Source: Clostridiales bacterium (lineage in GTDB: Bacteria > Bacillota > Clostridia > Mahellales > Mahellaceae). From it: DNA of 32,237 nucleotides. Positions 163 to 20,034 of the stretch are shown piece by piece (positions within the stretch are counted from its first letter, which is position 1; each line of letters starts with the position of its first letter). The stretch spans positions 1 through 32,237 of the forward strand of contig JASGMM010000020.1 of the NCBI GenBank assembly GCA_030156435.1, in the 5' to 3' direction. A program made the translations under genes and the position numbers. A model generated the notes under the pieces. That model searched no databases. It had not been told where the DNA came from and was given only the letters and a program-made list of their open reading frames with translations.

Positions 163-754
163 ATCCAAGAGCAGGCACCGCGTTAGATGTCACAAGTACC
201 AATATATCGGCATTCTAAAAAGGTGGAAATAACATTTAGAAAAATTCTTGTTATTGCTTACTTTTTATTTCCTATACTCTAAAAACAGGCAGAACCTGCT
301 TATTTCACTTATAATTATATCACATTTACCATAAAACAATGACGAAAATAGTTAAAGTTAAACAATTAAAGTTTTTTGGAAATTATTTTTTCTCTCTGTT
401 AGTGGAACTTACTTCTACAAAGTGGACTTTACTTTTTCATTTCACCCTTGCAATATTAGGGGTAAAACAGAAACATAGAATACATACGAACTGAAGATCA
501 CGTGTTAATACATCTAGAGCAGGTAGAAGGCTGACAATATGGGTATGTTTACCTGCAAACCGGGTATCTTCTTTAGCATCTGTCTTCACATCCATGCTTA
601 TACCAACTTTAAAGATGCTGCCATATCATGCTTTACAGAATGTTCTACATGTGATATTCTTTTGATTGTATAAATATATCTTTATACTTGCTAAGTATGA
701 AATAGGCATTTACATATTAAGATGCATTTAATGACACAAGAGGAGAAGTATATC
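163..754. other. Intergenic DNA between IS30 fragment and BREX operon
   Basis: No convincing gene is visible in about 590 bp. The first 250 bp is AT-rich and probably includes the right end of the upstream IS30 element, but I could not fix its terminal inverted repeat without the left end. On the minus strand, about 440-600 holds a 52-codon open stretch (from ATG near 595) with stops around it. It may be a decayed gene fragment, but I do not recognise it. The BREX promoter should lie in the last 100 bp. Confidence 0.5.
684..698. promoter_or_regulatory. Palindrome upstream of brxA, possible operator
   Basis: ATACTT-GCT-AAGTAT is a perfect 6-bp inverted repeat with a 3-bp centre. It lies 56 bp upstream of the chosen brxA start and just downstream of AT-rich promoter-like DNA (TTGATT near 662). 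The position fits an operator near the transcription start of the BREX operon. No BrxR/WYL-type regulator is encoded in the window, so any cognate factor is unknown. A 6-bp dyad can also arise by chance in AT-rich DNA. Confidence 0.25.
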
Positions 755-1348
755 ATGGAATATAGCGCGGGCATGGTTTCGTGCCTGTTTTGGTTCAATG
801 AAACGCGCAAGACTGCCGAGCTTTTGATGGCAGGCAAAAGCAGAGATGAAATTAAAGAACTTGCTCTAAAGGAAAATATATATCAAGCGAGGTCGGAGGA
901 TAGAAAGCGGCGCATATTCGGCGTGGCTATGAAACGGCTCGACAGCCTGCCGCGCGATGTCATAGCCGCTATTGCCGGGTGGGATGCTGGCGCGGCCAAG
1001 CTACTTGTGCTCATAAGCATAATGAAAACCGATCTTATGTTTTTTGAATTTATGTATGAAGTGTTCAGGCAAGCTGTGATGTTAGGCGAAAAGGAACTGA
1101 GCAGCAGGGCGATCGATGCTTTTTTTGATGAAAAAAGAGCGCAGAGCCAGGAGGTGGCGGGTTGGTCGCAAGTGGCCATAGAGAAGCTTAAACAAACCTA
1201 CGCGAAGATATTGGCAGAAGCCGGCCTATTGAGTATCTCAAAAAATAAGAAGGAGATAATCACGCCGCCTATCGATCACAGGCTGCGCGAGTTGGCTGAT
1301 AAAAATGGCTTAAAACCGTATCTAGACGTAATTACAGGGGAGATTTGA
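755..1348 (+). CDS. brxA: BrxA, BREX DUF1819-family protein
   Basis: First gene of the BREX operon, about 197 aa. BrxA (DUF1819) is a small, mostly helical, DNA-binding BREX component. The N-terminus MEYSAGMVSCLFWFNETRK and the following KSRDEIKELALKENI segment are typical of the family. The frame is open from 722, but the ATG at 755 is preceded at 740-745 by GAGGAG with a 9-nt gap and begins at the conserved YSAG block, so I prefer it over 722 or 731. The gene ends 2 nt before the brxB ATG, which suggests coupled translation. In studied BREX type 1 systems BrxA is not always essential for protection. Family assignment is supported by position at the head of a complete brxA-B-C-pglX-pglZ-brxL set. 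Confidence 0.88.
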   Translation: MEYSAGMVSCLFWFNETRKTAELLMAGKSRDEIKELALKENIYQARSEDRKRRIFGVAMKRLDSLPRDVIAAIAGWDAGAAKLLVLISIMKTDLMFFEFMYEVFRQAVMLGEKELSSRAIDAFFDEKRAQSQEVAGWSQVAIEKLKQTYAKILAEAGLLSISKNKKEIITPPIDHRLRELADKNGLKPYLDVITGEI

Positions 1349-1350
1349 AC

Positions 1351-1926
1351 ATGGATGACATAGCCGAGAGGCTTTCTAAGATAGAAGAAAGAATAACCGA
1401 TGAAAGTTTCCTTAAAAACAAAGGCCTTGGCAATGAGGTGGGCTATTATATATTCGATTACCCACCGGAGTATGAGCTGGATGTGCGTGAGTATGTCGCT
1501 TATCTGAAGGATAAGATAAACAGGTCTGATATGGGTGTAAAGATAGTGGAATTCGATCTTTATGACATTGTCATAGATATGCTCAAAGAGCGGAATTATT
1601 TGGAGAAATGCTTTGAATTTGAAAAAACAAAGGGCATCGATTATGCTTTTGAGGCCATAATGAAGATGCTCAGGCTGACCAGCCCGTCGAACCTGCTCGT
1701 GAATCATATTGTGGCCAATACGCCTCCTCGATCGGTAGTGTTTATAACAGGCGTCGGCAAATGCTATCCGTTTGTACGATCTCATAATGTCCTTAATAAC
1801 CTTCATCAGGTATTGGACAGCGTGCCTGTCGTGATGTTTTTCCCAGGCAAATATTCGGGGCAAGATCTGCGGCTGTTTGGCACTATAAAAGATGATAACT
1901 ATTACAGAGCTTTTAAACTGGTATGA
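1351..1926 (+). CDS. brxB: BrxB, BREX DUF1788-family protein
   Basis: Second BREX gene, 191 aa, the usual BrxB (DUF1788) length of about 190-200 residues. Recognisable family features are the RLSKIEERITDESFL opening, the FDYPPEYELDVRE segment, and the late block VVFITGVGKCYPFVRSHNVL followed by PVVMFFPGKYSGQDLRLF. The frame extends 6 nt upstream to a TTG, but the ATG at 1351 has a GGGGAG ribosome site 8 nt before it. BrxB has no known enzymatic activity. In type 1 systems it is required for both PglX methylation and phage exclusion, probably as part of a complex with BrxC, PglX and PglZ. A 30-bp gap with GGAGG separates it from brxC. Confidence 0.9.
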   Translation: MDDIAERLSKIEERITDESFLKNKGLGNEVGYYIFDYPPEYELDVREYVAYLKDKINRSDMGVKIVEFDLYDIVIDMLKERNYLEKCFEFEKTKGIDYAFEAIMKMLRLTSPSNLLVNHIVANTPPRSVVFITGVGKCYPFVRSHNVLNNLHQVLDSVPVVMFFPGKYSGQDLRLFGTIKDDNYYRAFKLV

Positions 1927-1956
1927 ATAATATGCTACTATCATGGAGGGATTTCA

Positions 1957-4900
1957 ATGCGCATTGCTGATATGTTCGTAAAACCCATCGACAGGGATAT
2001 AAAGGGTGTCATAAAAGTAGGCCAGAGCGATGAACAAAACGTTTACCAAGAACTCGACGAATATGTGGTTACTAAAGAGATGGCCAAACATTTCAGGGAT
2101 TTCTTTGAGAGCTATAACAAAAGCATAGGCGGCTATACCGATAAAATGGGCGTGTGGATTTCCGGCTTTTTCGGAAGCGGTAAATCGCATTTCCTCAAAA
2201 TACTCTCTTATTTGCTGGAAAATAGGGAAGTAAAGGGCAAAAAAGCCATTGACTTTTTCATAGATGACCACAAACTCGATGACCCCATGGTCATAGCCAA
2301 TATACAACGCGCGGCCAGCGTGCCCACCGACGTTATTTTATTTAACATAGATTCTAAGAGCGAGGCCGATGCCAAGTCAAACAAGGATGCCGTATTAGAC
2401 GTTTTCGTCAAGGTATTCAACGAAAAGCTCGGCTTTTGTGCCTCTTTGCCCTTTTTAGCAGAGCTAGAGCGCAAGCTCGTCGAAGAGGGATTGTACGATA
2501 GCTTTAAGCAAAAGTTTGCAGAGATAGAAGGGCGTGAGTGGGATGATGCTCGCGATGACTTCTATTTTATACAAGATGAAGTGGTGGAAGCACTGTCCTC
2601 AATAGACTTTATGAGCAAAGAGGCCGCCAGAAATTGGTGCGAGAAGGCCGAAGGCTCGTATACCATGACGCCTGAGAAATTCGCCGATTTAGTGCGCGAG
2701 TATTGCGAAAGCATGGGAAACGACCAACACGTTGTATTCCTCGCTGACGAGATGGGCCAGTATATTGCCGATGACACCCGCATGATGCTCAATTTGCAGA
2801 CCATTGTCGAAGATCTGGGGACGGCCTGCGGCGGCAAGGCGTGGGTTGTAGTGACCAGCCAGCAGGATATAGATGCTTTGACAAACGTAAAAGGAAATGA
2901 CTTTTCCAAAATTCAGGGCAGGTTTGATACCAGGCTGGCGCTTTCTAGCTCTAACGTGGACGAGGTCATACGAAAGAGAATATTGGCCAAGAACCAAACG
3001 GCATTGGACACCTTAAGGCTGTTATATGACCAAAAAGAGGCTGTTATAAAGAACATTTTGACATTTACTGACGAGATAGAGAAGAAGCTTTTCAGCGGCA
3101 GGGATGAATTCGCAGAGGTTTACCCCTTCATTCCTTATCAATTCAATCTGCTAGGCAATGTGCTAACGGCCATAAGGACACACGGCGCTTCGGGCAAGCA
3201 CTTAGCCGAGGGCGAGCGCTCTATGCTGGCGCTGTTTAAAGAATCGACCATGCGCTTTATGAATGAGCAAGAGGGTGTACTCATTCCGTTTAATGTATTT
3301 TATGATGCGCTGGATAATTTCATAGATCACACGCACAGGATTGTCATAAAACAGGCTGAGGATAACAGCCGGCTTGAGCCGTTTGATGTAGAGCTGCTCA
3401 AGGTACTGTTTATGATAAAATACGTAAAAGAGATAAAAGCCAATGTTGAGAATCTGACGACCCTCATGGTATCGCACATTGACGAGGATCGCATAACGCT
3501 CAAAAAGCAGGTGGAAGGATCGCTGGCCCGTCTGGTATCGCAGACGCTGGTACAAAAAAACGGCGATACCTATATGTTTTTGACAAACGAAGAGCAGGAG
3601 ATAAACAGGGCCATACAGAACGAGGTGGTGGACCCAGGTGAGATAATAAAAGAGGTTTGGAGTATAGTATTCGGGGATATAATAAAGGATGTTAAGTACC
3701 GTTACAGCGCGCGCTATAACTTCCCTTACAATCAAATGGTGGATGGCGTGTACTTTAAAACCGACCCTTCGGCTGAGATAAGCGTTAACATCATAACGCC
3801 TTATAACGAGATAAGCGACAACGATGCGGCGCTCAGGATGCTGTCCGTGCGCGAAAGCTGTGTTATCGTGGCTTTGCCACCAGATACCTCCTTTTTAGAA
3901 GAGATAAGCGACATGCTTAAGATTGAAAAATTTCTCATGCACCAAGGGAGCTCGCTGAGCGGATCATTTGAAAGCATAAAGAGGGCTAAAGGCGATGAAC
4001 GCTTGGAGAAAAGGCAACGCGTCCGCATATTTATTGAAGAAGCGGTCAAAAATGCCGATATCTATGTTAGAGGCGATAAGATAAACACAGCGTCAAAAGA
4101 TGCGGCAAATCGCATTAACGAGGCATTGGGCAAGCTCGTGAATAGCGTCTATAACAAGCTTAGCTATATGGAAACCGAGCCTGACGACTCAGACATAAGA
4201 AGCATACTGAAATTACCGGACGGGCAAATAATGATGAATATTAACAGCGGCAGCATACGCAATAAACAAGCGCTCGATGACGTGCTGAGAGCCGTTGAGC
4301 TAAATGCAATGCATCATATGAAAACGCCCATGAAGTCCATAATGGATACATTTTCCAAAGCGCCTTACGGTTTCGTGGATAAGGATATACAATACTTGGT
4401 GGCTGTTTTATTCAGACAGGGCAAAATAGCGCTAATATTAAACGGCAAGAATATATCGCTTCTGGATACGGACGCTGACGAAATTTTAAAGTATATAATC
4501 AGGCGCGAATATATGGATAAACTTCTCATAGAAAAACGCGTTAGGGCCAGCGCCGCGCAGATAAAATCGGCTAAAGAAGTCATGAAAGAGCTGTTTTCAA
4601 TGCCGATTGTCAGCGATGAAGACGATGCCCTTATAAAAGCCTTTAAAGAAAGAGCCAAAAACAAGATAGCCGACATAGATGAGTACCTTGTGGAATACAG
4701 GGTGGACGATCGTTTGCCGGGCAAAAATGTATTGGAAAAGGCCAAGAGGCTTTTGGAAACTACCATAGATATAGATAATCCTGCGGAATTTTTTAATTAC
4801 GTGGATGAACATAAAGATGATTTGTTTGATATCGCTGAGAGTATAACGCCGATTTTCTCATTCTTCAACGGCGAGCAGAGAAAGATATTTGATAAGGCCT

Positions 4901-5529
4901 TAAACCACATGAATATTTATAATAATAGTAAAAGCTATGTAACAGATAGAGATGTTATGGACATTGCGGAAGAGATAAGGCGCATAGTGGTTATGACTGA
5001 GCCGTATAGTCAGATATTTAGGCTGCCGGATTTGATAAAAAGATTTGATGAGTTATATCTGGGTATTTTGGAGAAAGAGGCCGAGCCGATGCGCAGCGTT
5101 ATTGAAGAAGATCGAAAGTACGTACTGAGCAAACTCGATGAGCCGGCCCTTGCCGATGAGTTCAAAAATAAATTTATAAATGCTTTTGCAGAGCTGACTG
5201 CTAAGCTAGAGAAAGCCAATGACATAGCCTCAGTGAGGAACATAGGCCATGAGAGCGAAGCGCTAAAGAAACGCTGTCTGGATGAAATTGCCCAATATAG
5301 AAAGTATTTAAACGATTTATATAAGAAGGAAAATGGTGGTCCGGCTAAGGTTGCTGATCCTCCTGCGCCACCGGCTGCGAAGGAGATGAAGACCATAAGT
5401 ATAGAGGATATCGTGAGCAGGAATATAACAATAGAGAATAAAGATGATTTAGAAAGATTTATAAGCTCGCTCAAAAACAAGCTGCTTGAAGAATTAAGCG
5501 ACGGCGTTGTGATAAACTTGCTTATATAG
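1957..5529 (+). CDS. brxC: BrxC (PglY-like), BREX P-loop ATPase
   Basis: Protein of 1190 aa, the usual size for BrxC. The ATPase domain is N-terminal: Walker A GFFGSGKS at residues 70-77, Walker B with D264-E265 in VVFLADEMGQ, and a sensor-like VVVTSQQD near 299-306. Long helical regions follow, then a Pro/Ala-rich hinge near residues 1126-1143 and a short C-terminal tail. The N-terminal opening (IADMFVKPIDRDIKGVIKV) is characteristic of the family. BrxC is a core component needed for both host DNA methylation and phage exclusion, most likely as an ATP-driven assembly on DNA. ATG at 1957 has a GGAGG site 8 nt upstream. It is followed 19 nt later by pglX in the same operon. Confidence 0.95.
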   Translation: MRIADMFVKPIDRDIKGVIKVGQSDEQNVYQELDEYVVTKEMAKHFRDFFESYNKSIGGYTDKMGVWISGFFGSGKSHFLKILSYLLENREVKGKKAIDFFIDDHKLDDPMVIANIQRAASVPTDVILFNIDSKSEADAKSNKDAVLDVFVKVFNEKLGFCASLPFLAELERKLVEEGLYDSFKQKFAEIEGREWDDARDDFYFIQDEVVEALSSIDFMSKEAARNWCEKAEGSYTMTPEKFADLVREYCESMGNDQHVVFLADEMGQYIADDTRMMLNLQTIVEDLGTACGGKAWVVVTSQQDIDALTNVKGNDFSKIQGRFDTRLALSSSNVDEVIRKRILAKNQTALDTLRLLYDQKEAVIKNILTFTDEIEKKLFSGRDEFAEVYPFIPYQFNLLGNVLTAIRTHGASGKHLAEGERSMLALFKESTMRFMNEQEGVLIPFNVFYDALDNFIDHTHRIVIKQAEDNSRLEPFDVELLKVLFMIKYVKEIKANVENLTTLMVSHIDEDRITLKKQVEGSLARLVSQTLVQKNGDTYMFLTNEEQEINRAIQNEVVDPGEIIKEVWSIVFGDIIKDVKYRYSARYNFPYNQMVDGVYFKTDPSAEISVNIITPYNEISDNDAALRMLSVRESCVIVALPPDTSFLEEISDMLKIEKFLMHQGSSLSGSFESIKRAKGDERLEKRQRVRIFIEEAVKNADIYVRGDKINTASKDAANRINEALGKLVNSVYNKLSYMETEPDDSDIRSILKLPDGQIMMNINSGSIRNKQALDDVLRAVELNAMHHMKTPMKSIMDTFSKAPYGFVDKDIQYLVAVLFRQGKIALILNGKNISLLDTDADEILKYIIRREYMDKLLIEKRVRASAAQIKSAKEVMKELFSMPIVSDEDDALIKAFKERAKNKIADIDEYLVEYRVDDRLPGKNVLEKAKRLLETTIDIDNPAEFFNYVDEHKDDLFDIAESITPIFSFFNGEQRKIFDKALNHMNIYNNSKSYVTDRDVMDIAEEIRRIVVMTEPYSQIFRLPDLIKRFDELYLGILEKEAEPMRSVIEEDRKYVLSKLDEPALADEFKNKFINAFAELTAKLEKANDIASVRNIGHESEALKKRCLDEIAQYRKYLNDLYKKENGGPAKVADPPAPPAAKEMKTISIEDIVSRNITIENKDDLERFISSLKNKLLEELSDGVVINLLI

Positions 5530-5548
5530 GGGATGGTAAGAAAAGCAT

Positions 5549-8500
5549 ATGATTAACAAAGCAGAAGTGAAGAAATTCGCAGTAGAGGCGAGAAGAAAGC
5601 TTTTATCATCGGTTAAGGCTAAAGCGGGCCTTATAGGCGTAACCGAAAATGGCATAGCCGAGCCCACAACTAAAGGGCAAGGCTATGCTGTCTACCCTAC
5701 TGACGCTGGCATAGAAACCACGCTTGCGGGAAAACAACTGGAACAAAGGGCCAATTTGGTAAAGCGCATAAATGAAATAGCGGGCGGCGACAAAGCGGAG
5801 TATAAAAGGGCTTATGAGAGCGTTATGGAAGAAGCCGCTTACACGTGGTTTAACCGGATAATAGCGGTGCGGTTTATGGAGATAAACGGTTATCTTCCAT
5901 CGGGAATACGCGTGCTCTCCAGCGAAGCGAAGGATAAGATAGAGCCTGATATCGTGACGCTAGCGCCCGACATAGATCTGCCGCTTTCGCCGCAGGAAAT
6001 AGATGAGATAATATCGCTCAAAGCCGCAAACAAATTGGATGAGCTCTTTCGCATGCTTTTTATAAAGCAATGCAATGAGCTGGGCAAATTATTGCCCGGG
6101 CTTTTTGAAAATACGTCATTATATGACAGGGATTATACAGAGATACTGCTCGATATATCATACACCAATGAGGACGGCGTTATACGCAGCCTGCTAGAAC
6201 TTGATGAGAGCTATTTCCTCGATCAGGTGGAGATTATAGGCTGGATGTATCAATATTATATATCCGAAAAGCACGATGAGGTAATAGACATATACGGTGC
6301 CACTGCTGTAAAAAAGGAAGATGTGCCAGCTGCAACTCAACTTTTTACGCCTGATTGGATCGTGCACTATATGATCGACAACTCATTGGGGAGATATTGG
6401 ATGGAACGACATCCCGAGAGCGGATTAGCATCAAAATTAGAATTTTTTATAAATGACCAGATAATGAGTGTTAATGAGAAAACATCGCCTGAGGATATAA
6501 AGGTGCTCGATCCATGCATGGGCAGCGGTCATATACTCGTTTATGCTTTCGACGTGCTTATGCAGATATATGAATCATGCGGGTACACGCAGCGCGATGC
6601 CGCGCGCCTTATAGTTGAGAAGAATCTTTACGGCTTGGATATAGATGACAGAGCATACCAGCTTGCATATTTTGCCGTGATGATGAGAGGCAGGAAGTAT
6701 GACCGGAGGTTTCTTGAAAGAGGGATAACGCCCAACCTGTGTGCTATAAAAGAAAGCGATGGATTGCAGAGGTTCGGAAGCGCTGCCAATAAGTTAAAAA
6801 TTTGCGATCAACATAAAGACACAGCAAACTATTTAATTGATACGTTCAGGGATGCCAAAGAGTATGGGGCGATACTCAACGTTGAGCCTATGGATTACGA
6901 TGGTTTGTTGGAATGTCTGGATGAGATCAGAGCTAACAGCAACTTGGATATCAACTATCAGTCGTGGTTGCGCAATGAATATGATTTGATGCTAGACCTT
7001 ATAAAACAGGCTCAAATCATGTCGCAAAAGTACGATGTAGTGGTGACTAACCCGCCATACTTGAGCAAAATGGATGCTAAATTAAAAGCATTTGTAAATA
7101 AAAATTACAAGGATTATTCGAGAGATCTATTCTCTGTATTTATATATAGGAATTTTGGGTTTTGTAAACAAAACGGATACTGTGCTTTTATGTCACCATT
7201 TGTATGGATGTTTATAAAAACATATGAAGAATTACGCAAATACATTATACGGAATAAAAACATATCGAGCTTAATTCAAATGGAATATTCAGCCTTTGAA
7301 GAGGCTACTGTTCCGTTATGCACCTTTGTCCTGAAAAATGCAAAAGATGACCAAAACGGCATTTATATCAAATTATCGGATTTCAAGGGCGGCATGGAAA
7401 TACAGAAACAAAAAGCACTTGAGGCAATAAGAAATGAAAATTGTGGTTATTATTATAAAGCAAACGCACGAAACTTTGAAAGAATCCCAGGAATGCCTAT
7501 AGCATATTGGGCGACTTATTCTATATTAGCAGTTTTTTCTTATCCTCTTTTATATAAATACACAGTATCAGCGGGGCAAAATGTAACAGGTAATAATGCT
7601 ATTTACCTGCGATATTTTTGGGAAGTAACTAAAAGCAAAGTTGGGCAATACAATAAATGGGTTTTTTATGCTAAAGGTGGAGGCTATAAGAAATGGTTTG
7701 GGAATTTAGTAAATTTAGTTAATTGGATGCCAGAGGCAAGAGAAAGATATGATAGTGTAGTTCGCAAAGAATATTGGTATAAGAAGGGAATAACATGGGG
7801 ATTAGTTACTTCAAGAGTACCGAGCTTTAGAGTATTACCAAAGGGTTCAACTTTTGATAAAGGAGGCTCCTCTATTTTTGTAAAAGATGATAGCAATTTT
7901 AATTATATTTTGGGATTATTGAACAGCAAAGTGTTTTTAGAAATTGTGCAAATATTTAATCCTACTTTGAATTTTCAGATAAAGGATATAAGATCAATGC
8001 CAGTTATATTTTCCGATACCTACAAGCCCCGCATTGATGAGCTTGTTTCACAAAACATAGCTATATCCAAGACTGATTGGGACAGCTTCGAAACATCGTG
8101 GGATTTCAAGAAGCACCCGCTTATAACGTGGAAGACGGATAGCGGGCTGATAAGCGATGCCTTCGACAATTGGGCGGATTTTGCCGAGCGCCAGTTTACG
8201 CAGCTCAAGGCCAATGAAGAAGAGCTAAACCGCATATTCATAGAGATTTACGGCCTGCAGGGCGAGCTAACGCCGGATGTCGAGGACAAGGACGTTACTG
8301 TGCGCAAGGCAGATCTTCAGCGTGATATGCGCAGCTTTATATCGTATGCCGTGGGGTGCATGTTCGGGCGCTACAGCCTGGATGTGGATGGCCTGGCCTA
8401 TGCTGGCGGCGAATGGGATGACAGCAAGTATAAAACCTTCGTTCCTGATAAGGACAACATACTCCCCATAACCGATGAGGAGTATTTCAGCGATGATATA

Positions 8501-9073
8501 GTGGCCCGGTTTGTGGAATTCGTAAAAGCGGCTTACGGTGAGGACACGTTGAGCCAGAACCTTGCCTTTATAGCCTCGGCTCTCGGCAACAAGGGCAGTA
8601 CACCGCGCGAGGTGATACGCAATTACTTTCTCAAGGATTTTTATAAAGACCATGTTAAAATATATAAGAAGCGGCCTATTTACTGGATGTTCGACAGCGG
8701 CAAGGAGAATGCCTTCAAAGCCCTAATATACCTTCACAGGTATGACGAGGATACGGTGGGGCGCGTGCGCGTAGATTATCTGCATAAAGCGCAGGCGGCC
8801 ATAGAGAGCGCCATAGGCCATTGCGACATGGTACTGTCGGGAGATATGGCATCGCCTGCCGACAAGGCCAAAGCGATGAGGCAAAAGGAAAAGCTGGTAA
8901 AACAGCTTGCCGAGACCAGGCTTTACGACCAGGCCATAGCGCATATAGCGCTTCAGAGGATACGTCTGGATTTAGACGACGGCGTGGCAGTAAACTATGC
9001 AAAGTTCCAGGACGTTGAGGTATCCAGCGAGGGCAAAAAACCCATAAAGATCGATTTATTGGCAAAAATTTGA
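5549..9073 (+). CDS. pglX: PglX (BrxX), BREX adenine-specific DNA methyltransferase
   Basis: Protein of 1174 aa, typical of type 1 BREX PglX. The N6-adenine methyltransferase core shows motif I DPCMGSG at residues 321-327 (S-adenosylmethionine binding) and catalytic motif IV NPPY at 501-504. The region after motif IV (about residues 510-830) should hold the target-recognition domain, with the type IIG-like phrase GLLNSKVFLEIVQIFNPTLN. The C-terminal third is a helical domain common to the family. PglX methylates a non-palindromic site in host DNA and marks it as self; it is also needed for phage exclusion. The reading frame is intact, with no homopolymer tract suggesting phase variation. The segment coding for roughly residues 512-820 is markedly AT-rich compared with both ends of the gene. 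The ribosome site (GGGGATGG) is modest. Confidence 0.95.
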   Translation: MINKAEVKKFAVEARRKLLSSVKAKAGLIGVTENGIAEPTTKGQGYAVYPTDAGIETTLAGKQLEQRANLVKRINEIAGGDKAEYKRAYESVMEEAAYTWFNRIIAVRFMEINGYLPSGIRVLSSEAKDKIEPDIVTLAPDIDLPLSPQEIDEIISLKAANKLDELFRMLFIKQCNELGKLLPGLFENTSLYDRDYTEILLDISYTNEDGVIRSLLELDESYFLDQVEIIGWMYQYYISEKHDEVIDIYGATAVKKEDVPAATQLFTPDWIVHYMIDNSLGRYWMERHPESGLASKLEFFINDQIMSVNEKTSPEDIKVLDPCMGSGHILVYAFDVLMQIYESCGYTQRDAARLIVEKNLYGLDIDDRAYQLAYFAVMMRGRKYDRRFLERGITPNLCAIKESDGLQRFGSAANKLKICDQHKDTANYLIDTFRDAKEYGAILNVEPMDYDGLLECLDEIRANSNLDINYQSWLRNEYDLMLDLIKQAQIMSQKYDVVVTNPPYLSKMDAKLKAFVNKNYKDYSRDLFSVFIYRNFGFCKQNGYCAFMSPFVWMFIKTYEELRKYIIRNKNISSLIQMEYSAFEEATVPLCTFVLKNAKDDQNGIYIKLSDFKGGMEIQKQKALEAIRNENCGYYYKANARNFERIPGMPIAYWATYSILAVFSYPLLYKYTVSAGQNVTGNNAIYLRYFWEVTKSKVGQYNKWVFYAKGGGYKKWFGNLVNLVNWMPEARERYDSVVRKEYWYKKGITWGLVTSRVPSFRVLPKGSTFDKGGSSIFVKDDSNFNYILGLLNSKVFLEIVQIFNPTLNFQIKDIRSMPVIFSDTYKPRIDELVSQNIAISKTDWDSFETSWDFKKHPLITWKTDSGLISDAFDNWADFAERQFTQLKANEEELNRIFIEIYGLQGELTPDVEDKDVTVRKADLQRDMRSFISYAVGCMFGRYSLDVDGLAYAGGEWDDSKYKTFVPDKDNILPITDEEYFSDDIVARFVEFVKAAYGEDTLSQNLAFIASALGNKGSTPREVIRNYFLKDFYKDHVKIYKKRPIYWMFDSGKENAFKALIYLHRYDEDTVGRVRVDYLHKAQAAIESAIGHCDMVLSGDMASPADKAKAMRQKEKLVKQLAETRLYDQAIAHIALQRIRLDLDDGVAVNYAKFQDVEVSSEGKKPIKIDLLAKI
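7080..8010 (+). other. AT-rich, compositionally distinct segment of pglX (probable target-recognition region)
   Basis: Base composition drops sharply inside pglX. In hand-counted 60-base blocks, 7501-7560 and 7861-7920 each have 16 G+C, while 6481-6540 and 8581-8640 each have 30. Codon use also changes, with many AAA, ATT, TTA and TTT codons. The boundaries (about 7080 and 8010) are estimated by eye. The segment begins just after catalytic motif NPPY and covers the part expected to read the DNA target, so a horizontal replacement of the specificity region is the likely explanation. Confidence 0.6.
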
Positions 9074-9092
9074 ACGGGAACGGGTGTGACTG

Positions 9093-11621
9093 ATGAGTTT
9101 GAGCACTATACAGGATAAATTGAATAAAAAATTTAAAAGCGAACGGCGCACGCTTGTGTTTTGGTATGATGATAATGCGAGCTTTGCCGATGAGGTGGAT
9201 TCGTTGCAACTCGAGAATGCCAAGCTGCATAAGCTCACAGGAGATAATGCGATTTATACAAAATATCTGCTGGAGTACGAGGATCGCAGTAGCAATTATC
9301 TTATATACGCTCCTTTTTCAAAACCGCCCGAAAAGGATAATCACCTTGCCGACACAGTTCATTACTCCGAGCTATTTTATACAGATAAGGCGGCTATGGT
9401 ATGCGAGGACTTGGGTATACCCGATAAATACAGGGATCAGGTTACACAATATGCAAAATTTTGGAAATCAGGCAACAGAACGGATAGGTTCGCGGCGCTT
9501 GGCATAGAGGAGTACACCCCCGAGGCTATAGAAATAGGCATGTTGGCCGTTGTGGCAGGGGTAAAAGCGACGAATTTTGAAGAGATTTTGAAAAATGTCA
9601 TAATAAGCGGCGGGCTGGATGATAACAAATATCTTTCCGATTTTGACAAACTCGGGCTTACAGGTGCTTTTTGGAGCTTATGCGAAAGATACTACGGCTA
9701 TAATGAGGAAAATCCTACATTGGAGAAGCTTATGGCTTCTTTGCTGATAACCTATACCGATCACCATTTCGAAGGCGAGCTGCCTAAAGCATGGCGGCCA
9801 TTTGTATTGCGCAAGGAAAATGATGTCGCCGTGCTGGTTTCCAATATGATGAACAATGTGCTGTACAGGGAGCAATTCGATGCACTATCCGGGCGCATAG
9901 CGGCAAAGCTTGGGGTTGAGGATCATGTAAAGAGTATGGATCCCGAGAGCTATGCCGAGTGCGATGCGTTTGAGGCTTTCGACCAAAGCATTGTAAAGCA
10001 CATGGCCTCTGTACTTGCGGCCAATGCTCAACCGCTGCCCGAGAGCTATGCCGCTATAATAGAAAATCGCATCGGCAGGAAACATTTCGCGCAAAAATAC
10101 GAGCCATACTATGAAGCTATAAGGCAAGCCGACCGGCTTATAGCTTGCGTCAAAGCTTTCGCAACGGCCAGTGCGCCTGACGCCGATGGGACAATTGCTC
10201 TTTATGCAAAAGAGTGGTCAAAGATCGATCGGCATTACAGGGGCTTTTACACAGCCTTTGATAAAATTTCCGCAGGCGATGACCTGCGCGAGTTAAGAAG
10301 TTTAATAGAGAATATATACGCCAACGATTATTTGGGCAAACTTTCCGTTATATGGTCGGATAAACTTGAAAAAATCGCATCTTTTAGCGACTTGAAAGCG
10401 GCAAAGCAGCCGGACTTCTATATTAAATCAGTTGCGCCCTTGGCGGCGAGCGGCATTACAGCCGTCATAATATCCGATGGCTTGAGATATGAATGCGGCC
10501 AAGAGCTGTGCGAGAGGTTAAATGATAAGGCCAATGCAAAGCCGAAATTGGAGTATATGATATCATCGTTGCCATCCGAAACGCATCTGGGCATGGCGGC
10601 CCTGCTGCCGCACGATTCCATAACGATTAATTGTTCATTTGAGCCGCTGGTAGATGGTTTGCCATGCGTTTCCACAGATCAAAGAGCTGTGATACTTCAG
10701 TCGCATAATCCAAAGTCGGCGGCTTTCACATATAGCGATGTCATGAACATGAGCAGGGAAGATGTGCGCAGGCTGCTTAGCGGCAAAGAACTCATATACA
10801 TCTATCACAATCAGATCGATGCGCGCGGCGATAATGCGCCTACCGAAAATGAGGTTTTTGGTGCGGCAAGGGAATCTGTGGACGAGATAATGGCTATTAT
10901 ACAAAAGCTGACGGTAGACAAGTCCATCACTAAGTATATAATAACGGCCGACCATGGCTTCTTATATAGAAGGGATAAGCTGAGCGAAAGCGACAAGGTA
11001 AACCTGTCCAAACAGGCCAATGCCCGCGTCAACAAGCGCTTCATAATGAGCGATAAGCCGCTTGATGTGGAGGGCGCGTTGTGCTTTTCTCTGGATTATC
11101 TGGGCGAGGGCAATGAAGGCGTATACGTCACGGTGCCCCGTGGGGCCGATGTTTTTAAGGTTGCAGGCGGCGGTCAGAACTATGTGCATGGAGGAGCTTC
11201 GCTTCAAGAAATAGTTATTCCTTTAATAAAAGTGGAAACCGAGTTGTATAAGAAAGAAGTCGGCAAGGTCGACGTGGAGCTGACATCATTGTCGCGCAAG
11301 GTAACCAACCTGATAGTGTATCTGGACTTTATGCAAAAAAATAGCGTCAGCGATACGCTGCGTCCGGTTAAAGTAATAGCATTTTTTGAAACCGAATCGG
11401 GCGAGAGGATATCCGACGAGGAGATAATGGTGGCCGACAAAAGGGAAGCATCGCCTGAAAAGCGCCGTTTCCACGAGAAATTCACCTTCAAAAACAGGCG
11501 TTATCCAAGGGACGAGAAATACTACCTTGTGCTCAAGGACGCTGAAACCGATATGGAGATGCACAGGTATGAGTTTGTAATAGATATAGCATTTGCCGAC
11601 GATTTCGGATTTGAATTGTGA
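9093..11621 (+). CDS. pglZ: PglZ, BREX alkaline-phosphatase-superfamily protein
   Basis: Protein of 842 aa, matching type 1 PglZ. The N-terminal half is helical. The PglZ domain shows the metal-site features of the alkaline phosphatase superfamily: VIISDGLRYECGQEL with D462, a following SSLPSETHLGMAALLP block holding the expected nucleophile region, and ITADHGFLYRRD with D620-H621. The region FKVAGGGQNYVHGGASLQE near residues 688-706 is also typical. PglZ is a signature gene of all BREX types and is required for methylation and exclusion; studied members show metal-dependent phosphodiesterase or nuclease activity. The start at 9093 gives the standard N-terminus but has only a weak ribosome site, suggesting coupling to pglX. 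Stop and brxL start are 13 nt apart. Confidence 0.95.
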   Translation: MSLSTIQDKLNKKFKSERRTLVFWYDDNASFADEVDSLQLENAKLHKLTGDNAIYTKYLLEYEDRSSNYLIYAPFSKPPEKDNHLADTVHYSELFYTDKAAMVCEDLGIPDKYRDQVTQYAKFWKSGNRTDRFAALGIEEYTPEAIEIGMLAVVAGVKATNFEEILKNVIISGGLDDNKYLSDFDKLGLTGAFWSLCERYYGYNEENPTLEKLMASLLITYTDHHFEGELPKAWRPFVLRKENDVAVLVSNMMNNVLYREQFDALSGRIAAKLGVEDHVKSMDPESYAECDAFEAFDQSIVKHMASVLAANAQPLPESYAAIIENRIGRKHFAQKYEPYYEAIRQADRLIACVKAFATASAPDADGTIALYAKEWSKIDRHYRGFYTAFDKISAGDDLRELRSLIENIYANDYLGKLSVIWSDKLEKIASFSDLKAAKQPDFYIKSVAPLAASGITAVIISDGLRYECGQELCERLNDKANAKPKLEYMISSLPSETHLGMAALLPHDSITINCSFEPLVDGLPCVSTDQRAVILQSHNPKSAAFTYSDVMNMSREDVRRLLSGKELIYIYHNQIDARGDNAPTENEVFGAARESVDEIMAIIQKLTVDKSITKYIITADHGFLYRRDKLSESDKVNLSKQANARVNKRFIMSDKPLDVEGALCFSLDYLGEGNEGVYVTVPRGADVFKVAGGGQNYVHGGASLQEIVIPLIKVETELYKKEVGKVDVELTSLSRKVTNLIVYLDFMQKNSVSDTLRPVKVIAFFETESGERISDEEIMVADKREASPEKRRFHEKFTFKNRRYPRDEKYYLVLKDAETDMEMHRYEFVIDIAFADDFGFEL

Positions 11622-11634
11622 AAGGGGCTAATAG

Positions 11635-13665
11635 ATGGACGGTCTATCCGATAAGCTGCTGAACGCCTTCCCCGGCAGGGTTGTGCGCAAGGACCTCACA
11701 AAAAAGCTTAAAGAAGGCGCAAATGTGCCGGTGTATGTGTTAGAATACCTTCTCGGCATGTATTGCGCCTCAGCCGATGAACAGGCTGTGGAGGATGGAG
11801 TGGCCAATGTCAAGAAAATATTGGCTGATAACTTCGTGCGCCCGGACGAGGCTCAGAAGATAATATCCAAGCTGCGCGAGAACGGCAGCCATACCGTTAT
11901 CGATAAGTTGACCGTTAAACTGGATATATATAACGATCGCTATATTGCTGAATTCTCCAACCTCGGCATAAGGGATGTGCCTATATCCGATGAGTACGTC
12001 GCCAAATACGAGAGGTTGCTATGCGGTGGCATATGGTGCATAGTCAATATGGAGTATTTCTATGACGAAAATGACAGGCGGAAATGCCCGTTTATAATAC
12101 GAAGGCTTACCCCCATACAGATGCCGAATTTTGACTTGAATGAGGTGAAAGAGGTAAGAGGGCGCTTTACAAAAGAAGAGTGGATAGACGCCTTGCTGCG
12201 CTCTACTGGACTAGAGCCATCGCGCTTTAGTGAGCGCGTGAAGTGGCTGCATCTGGCGCGCTTGATGCCGCTTGCTGAAAATAACATGAACTTGTGCGAG
12301 TTAGGACCGCGCGGCACTGGCAAATCGTATGTCTACAAGGAGATATCGCCGAACAGCATACTGGTTTCAGGCGGACAGACCACCGTGGCCAATCTATTCT
12401 ATAATATGAGCACAAAGGCGGTAGGCCTGGTCGGCCTATGGGATTGTGTGGCCTTCGATGAGGTAGCCGGCATTAAGTTTAAGGATAAGGACGGCATACA
12501 GATAATGAAGGACTATATGGCGTCTGGCTCATTCTCGCGCGGCAAAGAAGAGAAAGCTGCCCTAGCATCCATGGTTTTTATCGGCAATATAAACCAGAAC
12601 GTGGATGTTCTGCTTAAAACTTCGCACCTGTTTGAGCCGTTTCCGGAAGACATGAATAGTGACAGCGCCTTTTTCGACAGGATGCATTGCTATGTGCCTG
12701 GCTGGGAGATACCAAAATATAGGCCGGAATTCTTCACTGACGAATATGGTTTTATCACCGATTACCTTTCAGAATTCATGCGCGAGATGCGAAAGATTTC
12801 CTACGCCGATGCGTTCGATAAATATTTTAGGCTGGGCAATAACTTAAACCAACGCGATGTCATAGCCGTGCGCAAGGTCGTATCCGCTTTAGTCAAGCTG
12901 ATTTACCCGGATGGGGAGTTTGGCAAAGAAGAGGTTGAGGAAATACTGCGCTTTGCTTTAGAATGCAGGCGCAGGGTAAAAGAGCAACTCAAGCGCATCG
13001 GGGGCATGGAGTTTTACGATGTAAATTTTTCCTATATAGACAACGAGTCGTTCGCTGAGGAATATGTTCCTGTGCCGGAGCACGGCGGCGGCAAACTGAT
13101 ACCCGAGGGCATGGGCAAAGCCGGCCACGTGTATACAATAGGGCGCGGCAAATCGGGCATGATTGGAACCTATAAGATTGAGACGGAGGTGGTCAACGGT
13201 TCCGGTAAATACATCTGCACCGGCATAGGTAATATGCGCGAGGCTAGAGAGGCCTTGGAGACAGCTTACCGTTATCTTAAGGCCAACAGCAAATCAATAA
13301 GCGGCGCTATATCAGTATTGACCAAGGATTTCATGCTGCATGTGCAGGATTTAAATGGGACCGGCATGACCAGCAGCCTTTCACTGGTGGCATTGGTGGC
13401 ACTTTGCTCAGCTGCGCTCAATAAGCCGGTTATCTCCAGCTTAGCAGTGTTGGGAAATTTGAGCATAGGCGGGACCATCACTAAGGTGGAAGACCTGGCC
13501 AATGTGCTGCAAGTATGCCTGGATAGCGGTGCTAGGAAGGTGCTCCTACCGATACTGTCGGCAGCGGATATGGCAACGGTCCCACCCGAGCTCATGGGCA
13601 AGTTCAATATTATCTTTTACCAATCGGCCGAAGACGCGGTGTTCAAGGCTCTGGGCGTGGAGTGA
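11635..13665 (+). CDS. brxL: BrxL, BREX Lon-like AAA+ protein
   Basis: Last BREX gene, 676 aa, the usual BrxL length. The AAA+ domain has Walker A GPRGTGKS at residues 224-231 and an acidic Walker B in LWDCVAFDEVAG. The C-terminal Lon (S16) fold keeps a candidate catalytic pair: a serine in GMTSSLSL (about S580/S581) and the lysine of IGGTITK (K617), which fits the GGxxxK pattern of Lon. Family members form ring-shaped DNA-bound hexamers; BrxL is needed for phage exclusion but not for PglX methylation. An AAAGGGG ribosome site precedes the ATG. Presence of brxL, rather than pglW or brxHI, classifies the locus as type 1. It ends 42 bp from a convergent MerR gene. Confidence 0.95.
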   Translation: MDGLSDKLLNAFPGRVVRKDLTKKLKEGANVPVYVLEYLLGMYCASADEQAVEDGVANVKKILADNFVRPDEAQKIISKLRENGSHTVIDKLTVKLDIYNDRYIAEFSNLGIRDVPISDEYVAKYERLLCGGIWCIVNMEYFYDENDRRKCPFIIRRLTPIQMPNFDLNEVKEVRGRFTKEEWIDALLRSTGLEPSRFSERVKWLHLARLMPLAENNMNLCELGPRGTGKSYVYKEISPNSILVSGGQTTVANLFYNMSTKAVGLVGLWDCVAFDEVAGIKFKDKDGIQIMKDYMASGSFSRGKEEKAALASMVFIGNINQNVDVLLKTSHLFEPFPEDMNSDSAFFDRMHCYVPGWEIPKYRPEFFTDEYGFITDYLSEFMREMRKISYADAFDKYFRLGNNLNQRDVIAVRKVVSALVKLIYPDGEFGKEEVEEILRFALECRRRVKEQLKRIGGMEFYDVNFSYIDNESFAEEYVPVPEHGGGKLIPEGMGKAGHVYTIGRGKSGMIGTYKIETEVVNGSGKYICTGIGNMREAREALETAYRYLKANSKSISGAISVLTKDFMLHVQDLNGTGMTSSLSLVALVALCSAALNKPVISSLAVLGNLSIGGTITKVEDLANVLQVCLDSGARKVLLPILSAADMATVPPELMGKFNIIFYQSAEDAVFKALGVE

Positions 13666-17859: not shown

Positions 17860-18873
17860 ATGCAAATATTAAAAGGAATTTGGGATTTTATTCAATATCA
17901 GATTCTTGGCATGAGATGGCTCGATGAGCTGATCGGAAGTGCCCTTTCTGGCCTGGGACTGGATACATCCACCCGTTTGGGCGGCAGCATCGAGTTTTTT
18001 GCCTACGATGTTATTAAAATCACGATATTGCTGTGCTTATTAATTTTCCTTATCAGTTATATTCAGAGCTATTTCCCACCGGAACGCAGTAAGAAGATAT
18101 TAGGCCGATTCCATGGCATCGGGGCCAACTCAGTCGCGGCCTTGCTTGGTACGGTAACGCCGTTTTGTTCCTGCTCATCTATTCCGCTGTTCATCGGCTT
18201 TACATCAGCAGGGCTTCCTGTTGGGGTGACGTTCTCGTTCCTCATCTCTTCCCCGATGGTCGACTTAGGTTCGCTGCTTCTGCTGATGAGCATTTTCGGT
18301 ACGAAAGTAGCCGTCATCTATGTAATCGTCGGGCTGATTATCGCTGTCATTGGCGGTACGATTATTGAGAAACTGCACATGGAAAAGCACGTGGAAAGCT
18401 TTATTATGACGGCTGGAAGCGTAGACATAGAATCACCCGACCTGACAATGAAGGATCGGCTGGCTTATGCGAAGGACCAGATGCTGTCCACCTTTAAAAA
18501 GGTGTTCCCATATATCCTGATCGGCGTGGGCATCGGGGCCGTTATTCACAACTGGATCCCCGAGGAATGGGTGATCGCGGCGCTCGGCAGTAAAAATCCG
18601 TTTGGCGTAGTATTAGCTACGCTTTTTGGCGTTCCGATGTACGCTGATATCTTTGGCGTCATCCCTATTGCGGAAGCCCTGTTATCCAAAGGGGCCGACC
18701 TCGGCACCGTTCTTTCATTTATGATGGCCGTCACTACGCTGTCTATACCATCTATGGTTATGCTGCGCAAGGCTGTCAAACCGAAACTGTTGGCGCTGTT
18801 CATCGCAATCTGCACCATTGGTATCATTATAGTAGGCTACTTTTTTAACGCTATTCAGGGATTTATTATATAG
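17860..18873 (+). CDS. ArsP/YraQ-like permease (DUF318 family)
   Basis: 337 aa integral membrane protein. Long hydrophobic segments include ITILLCLLIFLISYI, VTFSFLISSPMVDLGSLLLL, VAVIYVIVGLIIAVIGG and a final LLALFIAICTIGIIIVGYFF, consistent with about eight to ten membrane spans. The signature TPFCSCSSIPLFIGF has C103 and C105; this CxC motif defines the DUF318 permeases, of which ArsP exports trivalent organoarsenicals. A charged cytoplasmic loop lies near residues 170-205. ArsR control and the thiol/iron-sulfur partners downstream support export of a thiol-binding metalloid, but the substrate is not proven. The ribosome site AGGTGAGG is 11 nt from the ATG. Confidence 0.87.
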   Translation: MQILKGIWDFIQYQILGMRWLDELIGSALSGLGLDTSTRLGGSIEFFAYDVIKITILLCLLIFLISYIQSYFPPERSKKILGRFHGIGANSVAALLGTVTPFCSCSSIPLFIGFTSAGLPVGVTFSFLISSPMVDLGSLLLLMSIFGTKVAVIYVIVGLIIAVIGGTIIEKLHMEKHVESFIMTAGSVDIESPDLTMKDRLAYAKDQMLSTFKKVFPYILIGVGIGAVIHNWIPEEWVIAALGSKNPFGVVLATLFGVPMYADIFGVIPIAEALLSKGADLGTVLSFMMAVTTLSIPSMVMLRKAVKPKLLALFIAICTIGIIIVGYFFNAIQGFII

Positions 18874-18888
18874 TAGGAGGAACATATT

Positions 18889-19653
18889 ATGGCAAAGACT
18901 TGGTATCCCGTTATTGATTACGCACTATGCACCGAGTGCGGCATTTGCATCACAAGGTGCCCTCACGGCGTCTATGACCCAGCAAAGGCACCATCGCCCG
19001 TTGTAGCAAATCCCGAAGCTTGCATCGACCATTGCCACACGTGCGGTAATCTTTGTCCGGTTGGCGCAATTACTTACGTTGGCGACGATACCGGCTGGGT
19101 ACCTATGAACGGCATGCAGGAATCTGCAGAAAGCTGCTGTTCGTGTAGATGTGAAGCATCTTACGAAAAGAAGATCGCTGTTGATTATCTCTATCTTGAT
19201 TTGCAGACCTGTAACCGTTGCATAGGTACGGATGCAGTGCTCGATGAGGTGATGGCAACGCTTACCCCTGCCTTGAAACTTGCTGGATATGAGGTTGAGT
19301 ATAACAAAATAGAAATGAAAACAGCAGAGCTTGCTAGACAATACCAATTCCTATCATCTCCCACAATCCGGGTAAACGGTCGGGATATATTCCAATCAGT
19401 TGCTGAAAATGGCTGCGATTGCTGCAGCGAAATCAGCGGGGCTGATGTTGACTGCCGGGTATTTGAATACAACGGGGAGAGCTATGAAGTTCCACCAAAG
19501 GAAATGCTAGCAGAAGCCATCCTTCAGGCTGTATTCGGCAGGACTGAATCCGGTTGTTCTTGCGGAAATTATGAGTTGCCAGATAATTTGAAGAGCTTTT
19601 ATGAGGGAAAGAAAATCAAATCCGTATGTTCGTGCGGAGACAATTGCTGTTAA
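18889..19653 (+). CDS. Fusion of 2x[4Fe-4S] ferredoxin domain and DUF2703 domain
   Basis: 254 aa with GGAGG before the ATG. Residues 1-65 form a two-cluster ferredoxin: C14, C17, C20, C24 in LCTECGICITRCPHG and C45, C49, C52, C56 in ACIDHCHTCGNLCPVG. A Cys-rich linker (ESCCSCRCEA, 81-90) leads to a DUF2703 domain from about 98 to 215, with YLYLDLQTCNRCIGT (C108, C111) and a thioredoxin-like SSPTIRVNGRDIF segment, then CDCC. The tail carries CSCG twice and ends in CC. The many cysteines suggest electron transfer plus thiol or metalloid binding. I expected these domains as separate genes, so the fusion is notable. It probably serves the permease beside it. Confidence 0.85.
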   Translation: MAKTWYPVIDYALCTECGICITRCPHGVYDPAKAPSPVVANPEACIDHCHTCGNLCPVGAITYVGDDTGWVPMNGMQESAESCCSCRCEASYEKKIAVDYLYLDLQTCNRCIGTDAVLDEVMATLTPALKLAGYEVEYNKIEMKTAELARQYQFLSSPTIRVNGRDIFQSVAENGCDCCSEISGADVDCRVFEYNGESYEVPPKEMLAEAILQAVFGRTESGCSCGNYELPDNLKSFYEGKKIKSVCSCGDNCC

Positions 19654-19689
19654 ACAACAAAAATATAATAGAAAAGGGGTATAATAAAC

Positions 19690-20034
19690 ATGTCACTATT
19701 CGGAAAGAAAAAGGAAGAAACCACACCCTGCTGCGAGGGAAACTGCGATGCAGAAAGTATGGCAAAGGCCGAACATGCTAAAACCGAGGGCGCGAGCGTG
19801 AAGATACTCGGAAGCGGGTGCGCAAAATGCAACCAGCTTGAGGCGGCAACAAAAGAGGCCCTTAAGCTACTCGGCATGGATACTACCATTGACCATGTAA
19901 CGGATTTCTCACAGATCGCGGCCTATGGCGTCATGACAACGCCTGCTCTAGTCGTGGACGGAAAAGTGGTCTCTTACGGTAAGGTTTTAAGAACAGAAGA
20001 GGTTGTAAAGATTCTACAAAAAGTTAGATCTTAA
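19690..20034 (+). CDS. Thioredoxin/glutaredoxin-like protein (MTH895 type) with Cys-rich N-terminus
   Basis: 114 aa; AAAAGGGG lies upstream of ATG 19690. From residue 36 on it is a compact thioredoxin fold with redox motif CAKC (C44, C47) in KILGSGCAKCNQLEAAT, a cis-Pro loop in GVMTTPALVVDGKVVSYG, and no signal peptide. This is the redox-active disulfide protein 2 / MTH895 group often encoded beside DUF318 permeases. Before it, residues 1-35 contain C14, C15 and C19 in TTPCCEGNCDAESM, which could bind a metal or metalloid. It probably supplies thiols to the ArsP-like permease or the ferredoxin-DUF2703 protein. Confidence 0.88.
   Translation: MSLFGKKKEETTPCCEGNCDAESMAKAEHAKTEGASVKILGSGCAKCNQLEAATKEALKLLGMDTTIDHVTDFSQIAAYGVMTTPALVVDGKVVSYGKVLRTEEVVKILQKVRS

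Follow-up and report, generated by a model that had tools for sequence, protein, structure and literature searches.

PglX is the large methyltransferase of BREX operons, and in the stretch of DNA analyzed here the gene for this protein changes base composition abruptly near its middle. The stretch, which we call the window, comprises 32,237 nucleotides of contig JASGMM010000020.1 from a Clostridiales bacterium. The question raised by this locus is whether the part of pglX that specifies the DNA target has been exchanged while the rest of the BREX operon was kept, as an earlier note on this DNA had proposed from its composition.

Layout and base composition of pglX

All six type I BREX core genes (brxA, brxB, brxC, pglX, pglZ, and brxL) are present in the window and in order, as assigned with PADLOC and Pfam. 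The window PglX aligns with the solved E. coli BrxX and Salmonella PglX over nearly its entire length, and the alignment and motif positions locate within it the hallmarks of these proteins, namely, an NPPY motif, a target recognition domain (TRD), a spacer, and a BREX-specific C-terminal region. Below, we distinguish a backbone, formed by the two ends of pglX, from a central cassette that contains the second half of the methyltransferase domain (MTc) and the TRD. Elsewhere in the window, an ArsP-like permease, a DUF2703/4Fe-4S protein, and a thioredoxin-like protein lie in a row at 17860-20034, in what looks like an ordinary metalloid-handling cluster. The features of the BREX locus are as follows:

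722-13665, + strand: complete type I BREX operon (PADLOC and Pfam; best PADLOC E-value per gene at most 1e-62)
722-1348, + strand: brxA (PADLOC/Pfam)
1345-1926, + strand: brxB (PADLOC/Pfam)
1957-5529, + strand: brxC (PADLOC/Pfam)
5549-9073, + strand: pglX, BREX N6-adenine methyltransferase of 1174 aa (open frame; PADLOC PglX E = 0; Pfam Eco57I and N6_Mtase)
9093-11621, + strand: pglZ (PADLOC/Pfam)
11635-13665, + strand: brxL (PADLOC/Pfam)
5549-7048, + strand: N-terminal part of the pglX backbone, with the N-terminal domain and the SAM-binding half of the methyltransferase domain (GC3 0.49; nearest-relative set)
7028-7060, + strand: 5′ conserved block KYDVVVTNPPY, with the catalytic NPPY at 7049-7060; left exchange edge (position; breaks in relatives)
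7055-8081, + strand: AT-rich cassette that we read as exchanged, given as the outer limits of both change-point intervals, best fit 7073-8012 (change-points, shuffle test, AU tests)
7061-7471, + strand: module 1 (MTc), second half of the methyltransferase domain, class A (identity; separate movement from the TRD in E. coli)
7268-7327, + strand: loop SLIQMEYSAFEEATVPLCTF, short class A form, aligning with the base-6 loop 587-601 of E. coli BrxX (alignment with known-target enzymes; PMC11842806)
7472-7510, + strand: hinge block NFERIPGMPIAYW, boundary of methyltransferase domain and TRD, second junction (position; E. coli PK5074 chimera junction in the matching block)
7511-8020, + strand: module 2, the TRD, putative reader of bases 1-4 (relatives; limits by alignment with solved BrxX/PglX)
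8072-8107, + strand: 3′ conserved block TDWDSFETSWDF, right exchange edge (conservation of 0.76-0.77, preceded by a run at 0.30-0.50)
8082-9073, + strand: C-terminal part of the pglX backbone, with the spacer and the BREX-specific C-terminal region (GC3 about 0.61; nearest-relative set)

From about 7040 to about 8040, the GC content of pglX is only 0.27-0.35, as against about 0.45 before this stretch and about 0.50 after it. Third codon positions show the strongest effect, with a GC3 of 0.49 before the middle, 0.26 within it, and 0.61 after it; the surrounding BREX genes have GC3 values of 0.48-0.60. A three-segment maximum-likelihood fit places the change-points at 7073 (2-lnL interval 7055-7088) and 8012 (7997-8081), and its log-likelihood gain is 44, whereas 500 shuffles that swap synonymous codons within pglX and leave the protein and the codon usage unchanged reach 18 at most. 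The GC3 difference between the middle and the flanks, −0.26, corresponds to z = −8.9 against 5000 such shuffles. Because the pattern is absent from the synonymous shuffles, AT content and codon choice both shift beyond what the amino acids demand, in agreement with the AT-rich segment of altered codon choice that the earlier note had drawn at 7080-8010. The left composition edge sits on the catalytic NPPY (7049-7060), directly after which the note had put the segment, and the right edge coincides with the end of the TRD. One point of layout needs correction: the segment begins within the methyltransferase domain and takes in that domain's second half as well as the TRD.

The composition mosaic is therefore real in the window, but it is typical of the family. 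Across 101 homologues, the same segment averages 0.11 lower GC3 than its flanks; the window, at −0.27, ranks seventh of 102 for the GC3 drop and fourth for the GC drop. Of the E. coli and Acinetobacter alleles examined, nearly all have an AT-rich middle. With the drop being family-wide, AT content was ruled out as the sign of a recent event, and because the segment is AT-rich in most relatives, composition alone is no proof of exchange. One explanation that would make composition uninformative is that selection or silencing acting on the DNA or RNA maintains the AT-richness in all hosts, whether or not exchange occurs. The AT-rich middle in most homologues across several phyla would be expected from this, and a long-resident cassette would remain AT-rich. 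We regard the explanation as possible but rather doubtful in light of how the homologues follow host composition: poorly conserved flank columns track conserved flank columns in GC3 with a slope of 0.92, whereas the slopes are 0.42 for the MTc and 0.29 for the TRD. The middle of pglX thus adapts to host GC3 less than the flanks do, which fits circulating cassettes that change hosts frequently but dates no single event, and selection is still compatible with these slopes.

Ancestry of the backbone and the cassette

Exchange is established by ancestry and not by composition. In the window, brxB, brxC, pglZ, and the N- and C-terminal parts of PglX (PglX-N and PglX-C) have one common set of nearest relatives, the MTc has a second, and the TRD has a third. 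The nearest loci for brxB, brxC, and pglZ are L038, L009, L016, L013, and L011, to which L105 is added for PglX (in the order L038, L105, L011, L009, L013, L016 for PglX-N and L038, L009, L105, L011, L016, L013 for PglX-C). Nearest to the window MTc, at 69-71% identity, are L030, L112, L076, L022, and L106, none of them backbone relatives, while the TRD is closest to those of L012 (58%) and L024 (49%). On the backbone tree, the window belongs with full support to a group of seven rows, and its six sisters, with membership taken from the nearest-row lists, are L038, L105, L013, L016, and the two L009 genes. In this order, the sisters fall into MTc classes C, D, B, D, D, and E, and the window into class A. 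Grouping the window with these six sisters is rejected by the AU test on the cassette data (p = 1e-67), and grouping it with the ten nearest class A rows is rejected on the backbone data (p = 8e-7), p-values that are nominal in that the groups were picked after the identities had been viewed; the log-likelihood gaps exceed 230 units. The backbone and the cassette of the window pglX have different ancestry.

An equal, gradual divergence along the whole gene, which would have spoken against exchange, was not found. This incongruence in the window, combined with the sharp homology breaks that we find in relatives, E. coli, and Acinetobacter (see below), bears out the proposal that the specificity region is exchanged and the remaining BREX genes are kept. 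As the best known backbone match to the window is only 64% (N) or 76% (C) identical and the nearest modules only 58-72%, the window's own exchange event is undatable. The same backbone was present in none of the three genomes from the genus, family, and order searches, which yielded no second strain with the window's pglX, and a near-search of E. coli with this gene came up empty, which is unsurprising given how distant that host is.

We consider it very probable that pglX is a mosaic, in which a fixed backbone evolves with the BREX operon and a 1.0-kb cassette, from the NPPY codons to the start of the C-terminal spacer, is replaced by recombination. The fixed part would consist of the N-terminal domain, the SAM-binding half of the methyltransferase domain, and the C-terminal part, all co-evolving with the remaining operon. 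Ordinary homologous recombination, acting in the conserved flanks as well as at the NPPY, hinge, and DWDSFETSWDF blocks, would replace the cassette, and the MTc and TRD would also swap separately, joined at the conserved hinge block, to give target combinations. We infer that homologous recombination in conserved blocks is the simplest route because the scanned window proteins include no recombinase, no repeats bracket the window cassette, and no silent pglX copy was found in the genome, which is 99.6% complete.

Programmed switching, in which a dedicated recombinase would flip the cassette with a local silent pglX copy, has a precedent in lactobacilli, where full and partial pglX genes lie in opposite orientation with an integrase (PMC7513527), and tandem pglX pairs exist in loci L070 and L009. 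For the window we hold it to be quite unlikely, given the lack of a recombinase in the scanned proteins and of flanking repeats, and given that, besides a shorter methyltransferase, the genome has only one other PglX-type gene, which is 49-50% alike and sits in a BREX locus of its own. The separate locus (contig C45 of the window's genome, G000; L087:6551-17300) is type I-like, with brxA, brxB, brxC, pglX, and pglZ. Among the four ORFs scanned after pglZ there is no match to BrxL, and one of them (310 aa) resembles mad3/mad8 of MADS. The L087 PglX has a class D MTc and an AT-rich middle too.

A search for donors of the cassette found none in viral contigs, and its phage matches are only distant (at most 33%). 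The best plasmid match to the cassette, from Acinetobacter towneri, is 49.5% identical. We did not retain direct cross-phylum transfer from this species, for which the evidence is weak, as its backbone is about equally alike (42-45%). A methyltransferase of about 856 aa occurs in all three genomes of the genus (G000:C47:59211-60617, G001:C1:2133458-2134876, and G002:C59:3007-4356); its post-NPPY part is 32-33% identical to the window cassette, and by this resemblance it is possibly a distant relative of the cassette pool.

Homology breaks and separate modules in relatives

Over all pairs, N-terminal identity follows C-terminal identity (rho 0.63) and is unrelated to TRD identity (rho 0.01). 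In the 117 pairs with alike flanks, the 5′ break falls mostly 4-13 or 147-157 codons past the start of NPPY, with a minority of pairs breaking at +27 to +38, at +95 to +115, or upstream of NPPY. We note that a visible break marks the end of homology, which is not necessarily the crossover point. The upstream case is L149, a plasmid of Acinetobacter sp. YH16040_T, where the breaks lie about 97-115 codons before NPPY, unlike the usual NPPY and hinge sites; the exchange there perhaps included the BrxX-specific insert that precedes NPPY.

The same breaks appear within species. When the pglX of E. coli HS was used as the query, coverage of at least 80% was reached in only 4 of the 351 matching E. 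coli records, and with the p101EVA gene in only 4 of 57; the reader appears to be exchanged so often that few E. coli copies carry the HS or p101EVA segment. DNA identity among the fetched E. coli pglX alleles is 86-100% in the flanks and 44-56% in the middle, and Acinetobacter plasmids have the same pattern of alike flanks and unrelated middles. Modular exchange is thus marked both by differing phylogenies of middle and backbone in the window and by alleles of one species, in E. coli and in Acinetobacter, that share flanks and differ in the middle. In E. coli LR-29-1 (L148:3001-4695), a shortened pglX is followed by several insertion-sequence remnants, and this BREX locus is probably broken.

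Two loci carry a pair of pglX genes. The ends of the two genes in L070 are 99% and 95% identical and the middles 37-38%, so that the difference between them is confined to the cassette; the L009 pair follows a similar pattern. Between the genes lies an ORF of 791 aa in L070 (8001-17883), where the backbones are nearly identical and the cassettes unrelated, and one of 250 aa in L009 (8001-16059), where the backbones are similar and the cassettes again unrelated. Loci of this kind may read two targets simultaneously.

That the halves of the cassette also move apart from each other is seen in the pglX of E. coli PK5074 (L138). Its first 1977 nt equal L137 with 3 mismatches, and its remaining 1718 nt equal L144, also with 3 mismatches; L137 is the E. 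fergusonii-type gene, with a protein accession identical to that of pEFER, and L144 is the gene of E. coli NMBU_W05E18. The switch falls in the block encoding DDFKKIPGSPIAYW, which matches the window hinge NFERIPGMPIAYW at 7472-7510. This clean chimera at the hinge shows that the MTc and TRD are exchangeable separately. On the TRD tree, a weak tree owing to the short, divergent TRD, the MTc class changes 40 times, as against 41.9 with shuffled labels, which is consistent with the MTc classes reassorting freely over TRDs. The suggestion of the earlier note that the swap takes place within one large methyltransferase holds as far as the single chain is concerned, but the unit consists of two modules, one of which is half of the catalytic domain.

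If no exchange had occurred, phage-driven selection would have to make the middle evolve very rapidly, with the flanks under constraint. Diversifying selection is expected on target-reading parts, and within BrxX the TRD varies most (PMC11842806). In close pairs, however, codon identity at residues that have not changed is 0.8-0.97 in the flanks and only 0.35-0.6 in the middle, where these codons are saturated, so that rapid amino-acid evolution alone is insufficient. Alike cassettes also occur on unlike backbones, and fast evolution would not assemble the PK5074 gene from long, nearly exact stretches of two other alleles. We therefore judge this explanation highly improbable. An assembly artefact that joined two different pglX genes, conceivable in a draft genome of 104 contigs in which an abrupt composition change would look alike, is barely credible, because the reading frame is open throughout, the catalytic and hinge motifs are intact, and the break is located where complete E. 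coli genomes and isolates break too.

Target reading and comparison with known systems

Published structures allow the two modules of the exchanged cassette to be related to the bases that they read. In the E. coli BrxX-DNA complex, the TRD reads bases 1-4 and loop 587-601 of the methyltransferase domain reads base 6; the E. fergusonii enzyme has a shorter base-6 loop and reads T at this position (PMC11842806). Engineering of Salmonella PglX mapped specificity to positions of the TRD and of loop 591-600, and self-mark and phage target both take their specificity from PglX (PMC11341690). Both loops (BrxX 587-601 and PglX 591-600) fall inside the MTc module. The short class A loop, ATVP.C, is found in the window, pEFER (GCTAAT), and Acinetobacter NEB 394 (GTAGAT), and the class B loop, SGEVVQ, in E. 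coli HS (GGTAAG) and Salmonella (GATCAG). The MTc class agrees with base 6 in four of four enzymes with known targets (A with T, B with G), a small set of two per class, in which three of the four had been compared previously in the literature. Because its loop is class A, the window PglX is predicted to have the target NNNNmAT, in which, as expected for type I BREX, it would methylate only one strand of a non-palindromic site; a methylome paper on Clostridia contained no usable PglX motif.

Since PglX sets the specificity of both, swapping either module would, judging from the published structures and motifs, alter the self-mark and the phage target together. We lean slightly toward a two-part BREX code within one protein, in which the MTc sets the last base and the TRD the first four, and in which the two reassort via the NPPY and hinge blocks, such that one end of the target could change at a time. 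Module classes of the MTc and TRD could then allow target prediction from sequence, and the natural E. coli pair with a common TRD and a different base-6 module makes the code directly testable. For BREX, a common form of defense, the finding is that the operon very probably stays in place and only its reader is exchanged.

Intragenic TRD exchange in Type III Mod, TRD shuffling in HsdS, and the lactobacilli pglX pairs with an integrase are known already, and the literature also notes variable BrxX TRDs, divergence between E. coli and Salmonella pglX, and phase variation of pglX. In the literature searched, which comprised papers open without subscription, we found no description of natural PglX module exchange, of the NPPY and hinge boundaries, or of a two-part code. 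The Mod proteins of Helicobacter pylori, where TRDs are exchanged by recombination at the DNA for conserved methyltransferase motifs, resemble PglX in that the target-reading part of a single-chain methyltransferase moves between alleles or genes (PMC3983042). In Mod, however, a single TRD moves. PglX has two modules that move separately, of which one makes up half of the catalytic domain; it is a BREX enzyme and lacks a nuclease partner. The reassortment of two specificity modules into combinations of half-targets is shared with HsdS, the S subunits of Type I and Type IIG systems (PMC3077401). In those systems specificity resides in a subunit of its own, HsdS, whose two TRDs are homologous to each other and flanked by repeats (PMC3077401), while the PglX modules are dissimilar, lie in one methyltransferase, and have no flanking repeats in the window.

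In the inverted pglX pairs of lactobacilli, as in the exchange proposed here, a second cassette could replace the expressed one (PMC7513527), but that layout includes a local inverted partial copy and a recombinase gene, neither of which was found in the window. A Levilactobacillus brevis plasmid (L136:7014-14087) likewise carries a pair of oppositely oriented pglX genes separated by a tyrosine recombinase; the MTc identities of this pair to the window are 62% and 36%. A further comparison is with the engineered E. coli BrxX and Salmonella PglX, which involve the same protein and the same regions, the TRD for bases 1-4 and the base-6 loop (PMC11842806, PMC11341690). Those are laboratory point changes and loop grafts (PMC11842806, PMC11341690), unlike the natural exchange of whole modules at NPPY and the hinge. 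Three of the BrxX loop hybrids lost defense (PMC11842806), and the natural alleles suggest module boundaries where these published grafts failed.
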